Assembly: GCA_035531755.1 (NCBI GenBank)
Contig: DATKSK010000028.1
Coordinates: 39,151 to 103,150 of the forward strand
Origin: Acidimicrobiales bacterium
Lineage (GTDB): Bacteria; Actinomycetota; Acidimicrobiia; Acidimicrobiales; UBA8190
Direction of reading: 5' to 3'
DNA length: 64,000 nt
In this document: positions 48,590-52,082 of the stretch, one piece after another
Layout of the letters: each line of letters begins with the position of its first letter
How positions within the stretch are numbered: the stretch's first letter is position 1
Notes under the pieces: model-generated
Database searches by the model: none
The model's input: the letters and a program-made list of their open reading frames with translations, nothing else
Told to the model about the DNA's origin: nothing
Translations under genes and position numbers: made by a program

Positions 48590-48952
48590 GCCGACCGGGG
48601 CACCCTCGTGCCGGTCCTGCGCCGCTGGCGGCCCCTGGTGCTCTTCACCGTGGTGGAGATGGGCGTGCCGTGGTTCGTGCTGTTCCGGGCGGAGCGGCAC
48701 GTGTCGAGCTCGGTGACGGCGGTGATCGCCACCGTCCCGCTCTTCGGCGCCGTCGTGGCCCGGACGACAGGGTCCCACGGCGTCGACGCCCGGAAGGTCG
48801 CTGGGCTCCTGCTCGGAGGTGGGAGCGTCTTCGCCACGCGGCCCGCCACCGGTGGCCGGCGGCGTTGGCGGCGCCACCGGTGGCCGGGCGCTGCCGTCGA
48901 CCTCACCGCCCCAGGGCGGGCGTCGCACCCACCTGCACGGTCCTGGCGATAG
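48590..48952 (+). pseudogene. Fragment of an EamA/DMT-family transporter
   Basis: About 70 residues match the middle of an EamA permease: RRWRPLVLFTVVEMGVPWFVLFRAERHVSSSVTAVIATVPLFGAVVARTTG, then DARKVAGLLLGGGSV. The N-terminal half and all later spans are absent, and the frame decays into Arg-rich low complexity. The stop codon at 48950-48952 lies in the target duplication of the transposon. The fragment was probably already decaying before the insertion, because sequence on the other side of the element does not resume a transporter. Confidence 0.6.
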
Positions 48953-48954
48953 TG
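48947..48954. repeat. Left target-site duplication CGATAGTG
   Basis: Eight bases directly outside the left terminal inverted repeat, identical to 52075-52082. Length fits the 8-9 bp duplications of IS1-family elements. Confidence 0.85.
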
Positions 48955-48971
48955 GGTAGTGGGTCAGTTTG
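48955..48971. repeat. Left terminal inverted repeat
   Basis: GGTAGTGGGTCAGTTTG, the exact reverse complement of 52058-52074. Confidence 0.9.
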
Positions 48972-49143
48972 GGGAACTGTCCCGGCCGTGCCTCTCTTTG
49001 GTTGATCGGGAGGCAGTGCGCTGCTGGGCGAAGAAGGCTCTCCAACCCCCTCCCTGACGCAAAATCCGCCACACCGCCCAGTACGTGAGAATCGAAAAGC
49101 CGAGGCTGAGAATCGCAACGAAGACCCACACGACCGCCGTCAT
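48964..49143 (-). CDS. 59-aa single-span membrane peptide of the transposon
   Basis: A small ORF from ATG at 49141-49143 to a TGA at 48964-48966, which is part of the left terminal repeat. The N-terminal half is strongly hydrophobic (TAVVWVFVAILSLGFSILTY, about 2-21, then WAVWRIL), and the C-terminal half is polar and basic (QQRTASRSTKERHGRD). This gives a membrane helix with a cytoplasmic tail. It lies 42 bp downstream of the transposase stop on the same strand and may be cotranscribed. GGTGAG about 6 nt upstream is a weak ribosome-binding site. Use of the terminal repeat for the stop codon recalls IS elements that save space this way. I recognise no family. Confidence 0.5.
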   Translation of the reverse strand: MTAVVWVFVAILSLGFSILTYWAVWRILRQGGGWRAFFAQQRTASRSTKERHGRDSSPN

Positions 49144-49185
49144 TGGTCGCTCACCGCGGCCTGGGGGGACGGGCGATTCACCCGA

Positions 49186-50025
49186 TCAGTCAAGCAGAGC
49201 GGCGATCTGAAAGGTTGACCATGGGTGAGTCTCGACACCGGCCGCCATGGCGGGGGTGGTGGGGCGCCCGGCCTTCTTGGAGAGCGTCTGGTGGGTCCGG
49301 CCGAGGTTGTACCAGGCGAAGTGGAGGCTCATGGCAGCCGCGTGGTTCTCGACCTTCTTGGAGAAGGCGTTGGTGAGCCTGGTGAACCGTCGCATCCCCA
49401 TCCGCATTGTGAGGTTCTGGCGCTCCACGTAGCTGGTCGAGATGTGCTTGGGGTCGGGTCGACCGGTGATCGTCCGCTTGTCGATGCCGGTGCACTTCGC
49501 CGGCGAGTAGCGGGTCTCGACCTGGCTGGATTCGTACATCTTGACGAGCTGGGCGAAGTCGACCCGGTCGGCCCCGAACAGGGGCTCCACGCACTGGAGG
49601 TAGGACCCGAGGCCGTCCGTGGTGAGCTGGATTCGGCCTGGGGCCAGCCGGGAGCGCAGGTCGGACAGGAAGTAGTAGCAGTCGCGGCCGGTGCGCTCGC
49701 CCACCAGCCAGCTCGGGACGAGCTTCGTGTCGGCGTCGATGGCGGTCCAGGTCCACACGTCCCCGTAGTCGTCGGGGTGGTGCTCCATGACGTGGGCTTC
49801 CTTGGCCCCCACGAAGGACCAGATCTCGTCGCACCGGACCCGCTTGATGGGGAGCTTCTGGAAGGCCCCGTCCTGGTACTCCGAACACGCCTCGCCCAGG
49901 TCCAGGAGGAGCTTGGTGATCGTGTTCTTGGCCGCTCCGGTGACCCGGACCGTGGACCGGATGCTCATGCCCTCCACCAGGCAGGCGACCACCTGTCCCC
50001 TGCGCTCCGTGGAAAGCCTGTTCAT
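49186..50025 (-). CDS. IS1-family transposase
   Basis: A 279-aa single-frame transposase. MNRLSTERRGQVVACLVEGMSIRSTVRVTG and AAKNTITKLLLDLGEACSEY form a helix-turn-helix. The DDE triad is Asp66 in VRCDEIWSFVGAKE, Asp137 in QLTTDGLGSY, and Glu201 in STSYVERQNLTMRM, with the IS1-type RMGMRRFTRLTNAFSKKVENH and WYNLGRTHQTL following. Unlike classical IS1 there is no separate insA frame or frameshift. The ATG at 50025 is chosen because it lies 7 nt after CATAAT of a good promoter; a GTG at 50073 and an ATG at 50034 are also in frame. It should move elements bearing these 17-bp ends. Confidence 0.9.
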   Translation of the reverse strand: MNRLSTERRGQVVACLVEGMSIRSTVRVTGAAKNTITKLLLDLGEACSEYQDGAFQKLPIKRVRCDEIWSFVGAKEAHVMEHHPDDYGDVWTWTAIDADTKLVPSWLVGERTGRDCYYFLSDLRSRLAPGRIQLTTDGLGSYLQCVEPLFGADRVDFAQLVKMYESSQVETRYSPAKCTGIDKRTITGRPDPKHISTSYVERQNLTMRMGMRRFTRLTNAFSKKVENHAAAMSLHFAWYNLGRTHQTLSKKAGRPTTPAMAAGVETHPWSTFQIAALLD

Positions 50026-50032
50026 ACTGACC

Positions 50033-50061
50033 ATTATGCTTGAGTCTTGTGCGAACGTCAA
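50033..50061 (-). promoter_or_regulatory. Transposase promoter TTGACG-17-CATAAT
   Basis: On the minus strand TTGACG (50061-50056), a 17-bp spacer and CATAAT (50038-50033) form a near-consensus sigma-70-type promoter. The ATG follows the -10 by 7 nt, so the transcript is leaderless or nearly so. Confidence 0.65.
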
Positions 50062-50075
50062 CCTCGATTCCACAA

Positions 50076-50126
50076 ATATGTCATACTTCTATCTATGCCG
50101 ATCCGGCCAGGAGAAGTATGACATAT
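50076..50126. promoter_or_regulatory. 15-bp inverted repeat with two TATGNCATA sites over the ATPase start
   Basis: ATATGTCATACTTCT (50076-50090) and AGAAGTATGACATAT (50112-50126) are perfect inverted repeats 21 bp apart. Each arm contains a TATG-N-CATA palindrome, centred at 50081 and 50121, exactly 40 bp apart (about four helical turns). The right arm includes the ATPase start codon and part of its AGGAG ribosome-binding site. As DNA this looks like a paired operator; as RNA it would be a 15-bp hairpin hiding the start site. Confidence 0.7.
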
Positions 50127-51776
50127 CCCCCGTTCCACTGGTCAAGCACCGACCCCACGCCGATGGTCCTCTCCGACGACGAGTTCGCCGAGATGTTCCC
50201 CGGCGAAGGGGACTACATCGAGTTCAAGCAAGGACTCGGCATTGACACCCTCCGCGAGACAGTCACGGCATTCTCCAATGCCGACGGTGGCGTCATCGTC
50301 ATCGGGGTATCCGATGACGGACAGATCCATGGCCACACCCTCACGGGTGATGCGATAGCCAAGATCCATCGTCTCATCTCTGATGTTCACCAGGCCGGCC
50401 GCTACGACATTCGTTCAATACCGGTCGGGGAGAAGTCGGTGACGTTCCTCGCGGTTGATCGTCGCCGAGAAGGATTTGCTCAGGATACGGACGGGGCGGT
50501 GCTCCTGCGGCGCGGTGCATCGAATATCCGACTCTTCGGCGCAGAGTTGGGTGCGTTTATGGCGGAGCGTCGCCTGAACCGGTTTGAGGTGACCAAGACC
50601 GATGTCACCCTCGACGAGGTGGATACGACGCTCCTTGATCGTCTCGCCGCGGCATGGGGATGGGGGTTGGAAGGACGGACTGATCGCTTGGTCGAACACG
50701 GCCTCGCGGAACGGAACCGCGAGGTTGGGCTCACAGTCGCCGGCGCCCTATACCTCCTAGACGATCCCTCGTCGGTCCTCGGCAAGTCGTATATCGAGAT
50801 CTACCGCTTTCCTGAGGGAGCCCGTGATTACGACAAACGCACGGCGATTCGCGGGCCCCTCAACGTGCAGGTCGAGGACGCCACGAACCAGGTTATGAAT
50901 GAGCTCGGCGCCGAGCTGGTTGTGCTTGGCTTACGCCGATACGAACTCGATCGAATCCCACGTTCCGTTCTTCGTGAGGCAATCGCGAACGCCGTGGCTC
51001 ATCGAGACTACGAGAGCACCGGTACGGCGGTCCGCATCGAGATCCGGCCCGACAAGGTTGTGATTATCTCCCCCGGCGGCCTTCCTGAGCCCGTCACGGT
51101 CAGCAACATCCGCGAGCAACAGGCAGCTCGCAATCTCGCCACAATCGACACTCTTCGGCGATTTCGACTTGCCGAGGACGCAGGGCGAGGTGTCGATCTA
51201 ATGGAGGATGACATGCTCGCCAACATGCTCCAGAAACCCATCTTTGAGGACAGCGGCACAGCTGTAACCGTGGATCTGCTGATCGGAAGCTCGGTTGCCC
51301 CCGTTGAACGAGCCTGGCTATTGGAGCTGGAACAGCGGGGCGAGGTGTCTCCTCAAGAACGGGTACTCCTCGTACATGCTGCTCGAAATGAATCCCTAAC
51401 CAATTCATTTGTTAGGGACATTCTCAACGTTGATTCCGTGGACGCATGGAGCTTGCTCCAGCGGTTGAGGGACCGCGACTTCCTGACTCAATCTGGAACC
51501 AAGGGAGGAGCGGTGTATCGCCTGGCGGGTGACCTTGCGCCCCCAGCGGGCCTTCGCCTTAGCCCGGAACAGCTAGCCGATCTGATTGAGGAACTAGCGC
51601 AGAACATGCCAGTCACCAACGCTCTGGTCCGAAAGCACACGGGCCTTGGTCGAACCGAATCGATCCGCCTACTCAATGACCTCGTCCGGCAAGGACGACT
51701 GGTGCAAGTCGGTAGCCGCCGTGGGACTCGGTACGTGCTCCCTGGAGAGGACGAGTCCCAACTCTCGCTGCGCTAG
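50118..51776 (+). CDS. AlbA_2 (Schlafen-type) GHKL ATPase with winged-helix C-terminus
   Basis: A 552-aa protein of the AlbA_2/divergent-ATPase family often annotated as RecG-like regulator. About residues 30-120 form the AlbA_2 domain (GDYIEFKQGLG, ETVTAFSNADGGVIVIGVSDDG). About 300-400 resemble a GHKL ATP pocket (SVLREAIANAVAHRDYESTGTAVRIEI, then VVIISPGGLPEPV and the DAGRGVDLM turn). The C-terminus (about 425-545) has two winged-helix-like units, the last being NALVRKHTGLGRTESIRLLNDLVRQGRLVQVGSRRGTRYVL. AGGAG lies 4 nt before the ATG. Codon use is more A/T-tolerant than in flanking genes. Possible roles are regulation of the element or defence; neither is shown. Confidence 0.82.
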   Translation: MTYPPFHWSSTDPTPMVLSDDEFAEMFPGEGDYIEFKQGLGIDTLRETVTAFSNADGGVIVIGVSDDGQIHGHTLTGDAIAKIHRLISDVHQAGRYDIRSIPVGEKSVTFLAVDRRREGFAQDTDGAVLLRRGASNIRLFGAELGAFMAERRLNRFEVTKTDVTLDEVDTTLLDRLAAAWGWGLEGRTDRLVEHGLAERNREVGLTVAGALYLLDDPSSVLGKSYIEIYRFPEGARDYDKRTAIRGPLNVQVEDATNQVMNELGAELVVLGLRRYELDRIPRSVLREAIANAVAHRDYESTGTAVRIEIRPDKVVIISPGGLPEPVTVSNIREQQAARNLATIDTLRRFRLAEDAGRGVDLMEDDMLANMLQKPIFEDSGTAVTVDLLIGSSVAPVERAWLLELEQRGEVSPQERVLLVHAARNESLTNSFVRDILNVDSVDAWSLLQRLRDRDFLTQSGTKGGAVYRLAGDLAPPAGLRLSPEQLADLIEELAQNMPVTNALVRKHTGLGRTESIRLLNDLVRQGRLVQVGSRRGTRYVLPGEDESQLSLR

Positions 51777-52009
51777 TCCTTGATCCCCCACCGAGCGGCG
51801 GCGGCCTTCTTGGCGATCTCCGAACGCTGCTCGGGCGTCAGCTTCTCAGCCCTGGCCTTGCCACCCTTCCGCCCACCTCTGCGGCTCAGCTCCACGGCTG
51901 CCGGGTTCTTGCCCTCGTAAGGGTCCACAGGCTCCTCAGAGGTCGCCTGGGCCACCACGGCCGCCGCTCGGCGGTTCACGTCGGCAGGCTTACTTGACCG
52001 CTTGGGCAT
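51773..52009 (-). CDS. 78-aa basic KGG-type protein of the transposon
   Basis: A small Lys/Arg/Ala-rich protein. A variable N-terminal half (MPKRSSKPADVNRRAAAVVAQ) leads to AVELSRRGGRKGGKARAEKL and TPEQRSEIAKKAAAARWGI. The GGxKGGxARAxxLTPEQRxEIAKKAAxARW motif occurs in many small uncharacterised actinobacterial and phage proteins and resembles KGG/histone-H1-like nucleic-acid-binding peptides. It is convergent with the ATPase gene, overlapping it by 4 bases at the stops. Its promoter lies just inside the right terminal repeat. DNA or RNA binding is inferred from charge only. Confidence 0.72.
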   Translation of the reverse strand: MPKRSSKPADVNRRAAAVVAQATSEEPVDPYEGKNPAAVELSRRGGRKGGKARAEKLTPEQRSEIAKKAAAARWGIKD

Positions 52010-52015
52010 ACCACC

Positions 52016-52043
52016 AGCCTACGGGTCAGGCCCCCGGCGTCAA
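52016..52043 (-). promoter_or_regulatory. Promoter TTGACG-16-TAGGCT for the KGG gene
   Basis: On the minus strand TTGACG (52043-52038), 16 bp, TAGGCT (52021-52016), then 6 nt to the ATG at 52009. It lies 15 bp inside the right terminal repeat and points inward. It shares the TTGACG -35 and leaderless layout of the transposase promoter. Confidence 0.6.
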
Positions 52044-52057
52044 CGGGGCCGGCGAGT

Positions 52058-52074
52058 CAAACTGACCCACTACC
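52058..52074. repeat. Right terminal inverted repeat
   Basis: CAAACTGACCCACTACC, the exact reverse complement of 48955-48971. Confidence 0.9.
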
Positions 52075-52082
52075 CGATAGTG
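52075..52082. repeat. Right target-site duplication CGATAGTG
   Basis: Directly abuts the right terminal repeat and equals 48947-48954. Joining the flanks through one copy recreates the uninterrupted pre-insertion sequence. Confidence 0.85.

Follow-up and report, generated by a model that had tools for sequence, protein, structure and literature searches.

A 64,000-nucleotide stretch of DNA from an Acidimicrobiales bacterium (hereafter the window) carries an intact transposon of the IS1 family at positions 48955-52074, which is 3120 bp long and contains further genes besides the transposase. Comparison with related elements, 94 distinct ones with the window's own included, revealed that the transposase and a small gene, KGG, are a constant core, with KGG no ordinary passenger, and that the cargo is replaced while these two genes stay. 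A KGG profile matched 89 of the 94 elements at E ≤0.01 and 80 of them above 45 bits, the gene for a protein with SLFN_AlbA_2 and HATPase_c_4 domains (the AlbA_2/ATPase gene) was present in the window's own element only (1 of 94), and a bare transposase between such ends, which the initial annotation of this DNA had named as the outcome that would speak against it, was seen in none of the 94. We consider it probable that the window holds an intact IS1-family transposon in which transposase and KGG form the recurring core, the AlbA_2/ATPase gene represents one exchangeable cargo among many, and the KGG protein, predicted to bind DNA, helps or regulates the transposase.

An IS1-family element with intact ends

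The ends of the window element are a perfect inverted pair of 17 bp (GGTAGTGGGTCAGTTTG; 48955-48971 on the + strand and 52058-52074 on the - strand), and the 8-bp sequence CGATAGTG flanks the element on both sides (48947-48954 and 52075-52082), confirming the larger IS1-family unit that the initial annotation had proposed. Across the 64-kb window, GGTAGTGGGTCAGTTTG was matched at up to three mismatches exactly twice, at the two element ends; shuffled controls gave a mean of 0.05 matches, and two matches arose in 1 of 100 shuffles. The inverted repeat can be extended to 18 nt because the bases adjoining both ends pair by chance. The features of the element are:

48947-48954, no strand: left target-site duplication CGATAGTG, 8 bp (from the sequence; 8-bp duplications in 93 of 94 delimited elements)
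48955-48971, + strand: terminal inverted repeat, transposase side (repeat search)
48964-49143, - strand: predicted membrane peptide, 59 amino acids, hydrophobic, an unverified open frame between transposase and terminus that overlaps the terminal repeat
49186-50034, - strand: IS1-family DDE transposase, 282 amino acids, likely start ATG at 50025 (MNRL) (PF03400; D-D-E)
50033-50061, - strand: promoter-like site for the transposase, TTGACG-17-CATAAT (consensus match only)
50076-50126, no strand: 15-bp perfect inverted repeat with a 21-bp spacer, overlapping the AlbA_2 start codon, likely the AlbA_2 gene's own operator
50118-51776, + strand: cargo protein with SLFN_AlbA_2 and HATPase_c_4 domains, 552 amino acids, likely with a winged-helix C-terminus (Pfam, structure comparison)
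51773-52009, - strand: KGG gene, 78 amino acids, basic, second core gene (profile match in 89 of 94 elements)
52058-52074, - strand: terminal inverted repeat, KGG side (repeat search)
52075-52082, no strand: right target-site duplication CGATAGTG, 8 bp (from the sequence)

The transposase matched PF03400 at 38.9 bits (cut-off 24.1) and fell short of the NCBIfam IS1 equivalog cut-off (55.9 vs 100). Its catalytic triad, D69-D140-E204 in the 282-residue reading, is the D66-D137-E201 of the initial annotation counted from the MNRL start, and all three residues are invariant across 26 aligned transposases. Members of the IS1 family have ends starting GGTnnTG and target duplications of 8 to 9 bp, and the window element has both; across the 94 elements the first seven end positions are 93-100% conserved. 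Classical IS1 elements are about 0.77 kb, carry only the transposase and express it by a programmed InsA/InsB' frameshift, although single-frame members of the family exist. The PF03400 DDE transposase, the ends beginning GGTAGTG and the 8-bp duplications are thus shared with classical IS1, whereas the elements described here encode a transposase of about 280 amino acids in a single frame (one open frame of 282 in the window), have a separate KGG gene and span 1.3-6.7 kb, the shortest being 1323 bp. Searches of five distantly related IS1 loci (25-32% identity) turned up no KGG gene and no ends of this kind.

Delimitation of related elements

Loci with transposase relatives were taken as the best 80 of at least 556 confirmed genome stretches and the best 80 of 173 from viral contigs. 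Elements were delimited around the transposase by inverted ends starting with GG and matching at 15 or more of 20 bases, flanked by a perfect duplication of 8 or 9 bp. This delimited 96 of 161 loci (the 160 fetched plus the window), or 94 distinct elements after two duplicates were dropped: 51 from genome loci, 42 from viral contigs and the window's own. Reversed sequences of 85 loci yielded no element at the same threshold (best 14). Many of the 65 undelimited loci lie near contig ends, and 52 of them have a KGG match.

The elements range from 1323 to 6673 bp with a median of 3029 bp; 93 of the 94 exceed 1.8 kb, the one remaining being the only element below that length, and none is shorter than 1.3 kb. 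The commonest terminus on both sides is GGTAGTGGGTCAGTTTGAA. Duplications are 8 bp in 93 elements and 9 bp in one, in a search that demanded one or the other, and the preference for target bases is weak (≤0.27 bits per position). Judged by record titles, the hosts of the delimited genome loci include Actinomycetota, Acidobacteria, Chloroflexi, Verrucomicrobia, Proteobacteria, Nitrospirae, Armatimonadetes and Patescibacteria. One complete element (L094) lies on a contig labelled as an Asgard group archaeon, either a binning error or a cross-domain case. The expectation of the initial annotation that elements of this kind would be found at unrelated sites, each with its own duplication, was borne out by the 94 distinct elements.

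Evidence for insertion came from one acidobacterial assembly, where a 3300-bp element (L088/L270) has flanks of 52 to 53 bp that are joined on another contig (L269, 4614-4710). The uninterrupted target carries TGGATTTC once and, from translation of the flanks, reads like a transposase gene. The contig with the joined flanks also contains the left flank attached to 483 bp from the start of the element, after which comes a run of N, so the assembly is not clean at this place. The comparison of filled and empty sites that the initial annotation had proposed thus succeeded, with this caveat, for a relative and not for the window insertion itself. Plasmids of named isolates provided four further loci, all with KGG: complete elements with duplications in Mesorhizobium loti, Hoeflea and Acidiphilium, and a Methylocapsa locus at which no duplication was found. 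A check for multiple copies returned 54 KGG matches, spread over 45 of the 50 genomes covered with no more than three in any one; two complete identical copies within one genome were not shown among these 50. Homologues of the gene on the right flank of the window element (56-87% identity) are present in four other genomes of the host's family (5 of 17 with its own), and in the nearest of them, G002, the homology ends about 12 bp outside the insertion.

The KGG gene as constant partner of the transposase

Among the 66 elements that did not contribute to the KGG profile, 61 have a match, 52 of them above 45 bits, compared with a single match outside elements in 793,763 bp of flanking sequence. 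In 76 of the 94 elements a KGG match exceeding 45 bits precedes the transposase on the same strand; its start is a median of 64 bp from the left end, and in 56 of these 76 the distance is 45-110 bp. The KGG stretches are basic, with a pI above 9 in 73 of 74 and a median of 10.6, and KGG distances correlate with transposase distances (r = 0.34, a value reached in 0 of 2000 permutations; computed for 74 of the 94 elements). Even the shortest element (L129) retains the N-terminal half of KGG.

The association was also seen when KGG was the starting point. Nine of 395 genomes of the host's class have a KGG match, the window's own included, and in seven of the nine an end and/or a transposase, sometimes a remnant, lies beside it. 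Of 33 KGG loci on viral contigs, 24 come with a transposase or with an end upstream of KGG, and the transposases, 18 in number, are all downstream on the same strand; these 33 loci include near-identical contigs and contigs already in the viral sample of transposase relatives. Two genomes of the class (L211 and L212, from G144 and G345) have KGG genes beside which neither ends nor a transposase could be recognised, which could reflect other carriers or domesticated genes. At another locus (L324, 6278-10032), KGG lies between matching ends with the duplication GGTGAACA and no transposase was detected, possibly a non-autonomous element or one with a very divergent transposase.

The 78-residue window protein has no match to a Pfam family at E ≤1 and so does not match the Pfam KGG profile, which we take to be PF10685. 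Scoring of 7995 candidates gave 7975 KGG homologues; the 120 listed are all without a Pfam domain, and those that carry a name are called hypothetical, uncharacterized or histone H1, the last also being the annotation of the gene in Mesorhizobium loti. An insert splits the KGG gene between its N-terminal and C-terminal motifs at four mycobacterial loci (L030, L036, L043 and L044); a HicB-like identity of this insert, suggested by eye, was set aside, as the one Pfam match for L030, to Emfourin, is below threshold. A second KGG-type match is found on a cargo gene of the P63C cluster in L043, L047, L073, L082, L088, L095, L147 and L183, and the C-terminal KGG motif seems also to occur as a domain fused to cargo.

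Exchange of cargo between conserved genes

The nearest relative of the window element (L025) has a transposase 86% identical to that of the window, and the two elements align in two blocks only, the left end with KGG (81%) and the transposase (84%). In place of the AlbA_2/ATPase gene, L025 carries a Fic gene (PF02661, 52.9 bits). Alignment was likewise confined to KGG and transposase blocks, with or without the outer ends, in eight of ten close pairs; in the other two, L074 and L108 share cargo, and L171 and L181 are without KGG. A cargo homologue is shared with the nearest transposase neighbour (≥70% identity) in 4 of 68 elements, or 5 of 94 when all elements are counted, numbers that may be undercounts since the open-frame caller missed some real genes, among them the L025 Fic gene, which overlaps KGG. 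For seven cargo families tested, the transposases of the members are no closer to each other than those of random sets. The ten pairs and the cargo family lists were chosen by hand.

The cargo is varied. The biggest clusters are an HTH/IrrE peptidase (12 proteins), P63C (10) and a protein of about 380 amino acids with a sub-threshold IrrE match (8), followed by an SDH-type protease (6) and a DNA methylase (6), which in L183 is fused to an Mrr-type nuclease region. Individual cargo proteins match Fic, GmrSD, SIR2_2, an AbiEii-type AAA protein, SocA/Panacea, nSTAND1, a HicB-like antitoxin, a D12 methylase and NYN, among others. Two cargo proteins have transposase matches, one to Mutator and the other to IS1, and are probably nested elements or fragments. 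The defence library gave cargo matches to models including RmrA, methyltransferase, SoFic, HEC-06 and PD-Lambda-5, counted with no background comparison. Many cargo genes have no match, and many adjoin KGG in the opposite orientation. Of 118 cargo representatives with 110 or more amino acids, 104 went into the Pfam and PADLOC alignment scans (the 14 omitted by hand are all below 200 amino acids), which count matches rather than members, the cluster names having been checked on single members.

These comparisons do not bear out the view of the initial annotation that the four window genes are a conserved set that travels together: AlbA_2 is present in one of the 94 elements, Fic takes its place in L025 and the membrane peptide is unmatched in the loci searched, and the idea of one conserved four-gene system was rejected. 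KGG, listed by that annotation among the passengers, belongs instead to the core.

The AlbA_2/ATPase cargo and its palindrome

The cargo of the window element matches SLFN_AlbA_2 (PF04326) at 55.4 bits, against a cut-off of 25.3, and also has the HATPase_c_4 domain. Relatives at 40-54% identity are present in nine further genomes of the 395 in the class, and the sequence around them, about 1.5 kb to either side, revealed no ends of this type. Four closer clusters (78-89% identity) are known as proteins only, and the gene was not found in viral contigs. By profile, the protein matches PDB 3lmm (Corynebacterium DIP2311) over residues 43-384 (E = 8.7e-21) and Schlafen chains over about residues 29-89. 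Schlafen RNases cleave tRNA or rRNA with an E-x4-E...D active site. Residues E30 and E35 are invariant in 45 sequences and align with two Glu of the Schlafen chain 5yd0, presumably part of that RNase site. Compared over whole chains, the modelled fold shows low similarity (TM about 0.4). The defence library gave a partial match to a pAgo model (E = 4.6e-18, residues 43-385) and weaker matches to Aga models, with no complete system.

The inverted repeat of the window lies between the start codons of the cargo and transposase genes, 15 bp upstream of the transposase promoter-like site. Ten of 15 homologous loci have an inverted repeat at the gene start in which 10 or more of 13 bases pair. Nine of the ten (L014-L018, L023, L024, L281 and L283) are of the TATGnCA type, with letters that have changed yet remain complementary; L022 has another sequence and was not counted. 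In a shuffle test, six of these nine dyads were equalled by at most 1 of 200 shuffles and the other three by 11, 11 and 21. Among the five loci without a dyad, four have an uncertain start and L021 pairs at 8 of 13 bases. L016 has a second copy of the dyad about 140 bp farther upstream. Since the dyad is found at the starts of AlbA_2 homologues elsewhere, it is likely an autoregulatory operator that belongs to the cargo and travels with it; the idea that it is an operator of the whole element was set aside on the same grounds, its recurrence at 9 of 15 homologues. We take the cargo of the window element to be, in all likelihood, a Schlafen protein of the nucleic-acid-binding or RNase type that regulates itself through the start-codon palindrome and possibly acts in defence.

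As for the other features, one transposase promoter-like site was found, compared with 0.5 expected in shuffles; it stops just short of the MNRL start and would fit a leaderless message. The 59-residue membrane peptide had no match beyond the window's own in a tblastn search of the loci fetched by then, with no protein-database search, and an Rfam scan found nothing.

Discussion

The pattern described above argues for KGG as a predicted DNA-binding partner of an IS1-type transposase, a putative role to which linkage, position and charge point. Several observations weigh against it. The window element is a single copy in its genome, and no clean empty site for its insertion was found among genomes of the host's family. 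The KGG profile was built from 28 small proteins of the same 94 elements in which it was then counted. Five elements have no KGG match (L029, L169, L171, L175 and L181), nine have only a weak or partial one (L027, L038, L075, L083, L129, L135, L143, L172 and L174), and in four the gene is on the opposite strand (L050, L081, L141 and L142). KGG without a visible transposase or end is found in two of the nine class genomes and at 9 of the 33 viral-contig loci, and the correlation between KGG and transposase distances is modest. The model of the protein, three helices with a mean pLDDT of 81, is globally uncertain (pTM 0.35), and no relative was found among solved structures by sequence or by fold.

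Other functions of KGG would account for part of these data. The protein could guard the cargo rather than serve transposition, as an antitoxin-like or silencing protein that restrains toxic or defence genes; some cargo is indeed of toxin or defence type, the frequent opposite orientation of the neighbouring cargo gene fits, and so do the KGG-type matches on P63C-type cargo. We find this unlikely, given that KGG keeps to the transposase while the cargo changes, that its presence requires no particular cargo family and that it normally sits just inside the element end. A role in target choice, in target immunity or in protecting the element's DNA after entry, apart from catalysis and its control, would suit a basic, near-universal product of a separate gene in a group with a wide host range, but the weak base preferences at target sites argue against a part in target choice, and we regard such a role as rather doubtful.

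The palindrome raises the possibility that the AlbA_2/ATPase protein controls the window transposase, since it lies between the two start codons in a shared divergent promoter region, close to the transposase promoter-like site. Like dyads at homologues without such ends within about 1.5 kb, and the absence of the gene from all 93 other elements, leave little room for this: any effect would be particular to the window copy, and we hold it to be very unlikely. For the same reason, control of transposition in general by the passenger ATPase, one of the roles that the initial annotation allowed for the passengers, is unlikely. A further alternative is an ordinary insertion sequence (IS) with chance passengers, KGG being a neutral hitchhiker, and IS with passenger genes are an accepted class (PMC7986276, PMC9330008). 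A chance passenger would not be expected upstream on the same strand in 76 of 94 elements from multiple phyla while other genes are replaced, and we give this reading very little weight.

If KGG is instead a partner of the transposase, the transposase would act on the 17-bp ends and move the whole unit, as knowledge of the family and the duplications suggest. The basic KGG protein may take the place of InsA, a regulator in classical IS1, by working on the transposase complex or at the left end. Recombination in the conserved KGG and transposase genes would swap the intervening cargo, to judge from where homology stops. Such an element would likely serve as a small vehicle by which exchangeable and in part defence-like genes pass from one microbe to another. 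A wider proposal, that these elements are a hitherto unrecognised two-gene transposon superfamily in which an IS1-type transposase and a dedicated DNA-binding KGG partner carry interchangeable cassettes of defence and toxin-antitoxin genes from one bacterial phylum to another, the core genes being the recombination anchors for their exchange, is put forward tentatively, as something we would not quite bet on.

Long members of IS1 are found in the ISMhu11 subgroup of ISfinder, and IS1595-family elements are related to IS1, make 8-bp duplications and carry passenger genes; unlike the latter, the elements described here have a transposase that matches PF03400. Transporter IS (tIS) are defined by passengers between the ends of a single IS (PMC7986276, PMC9330008), an arrangement that the window element shares; the group described here differs in that 93 of its 94 members exceed 1.8 kb, in the conserved core gene other than the transposase and in the nearly complete turnover of cargo. 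Tn7-like transposons carry diverse defence cargo, according to one account (PMC8649781), and resemble the present elements as carriers of diverse, partly defence-like genes, but those described here use another transposase family, are about 3 kb and hold few cargo genes. A literature search of partial coverage found neither the KGG partner nor this cargo turnover described, and our claim to novelty is correspondingly weak.

IS1 is among the best-studied insertion sequences, and here one of its branches carries genes in units of about 3 kb that include a second conserved gene. If the wider proposal of a two-gene superfamily is right, many of the abundant KGG proteins labelled "hypothetical" or "histone H1" in metagenomes would be transposon proteins. 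Should KGG belong to the transposition machinery, it would be a new accessory factor, testable by a simple assay; should the cassettes be defence genes, the elements would provide a very compact route for their spread, and the element ends offer a practical handle for gathering untested defence-like genes.

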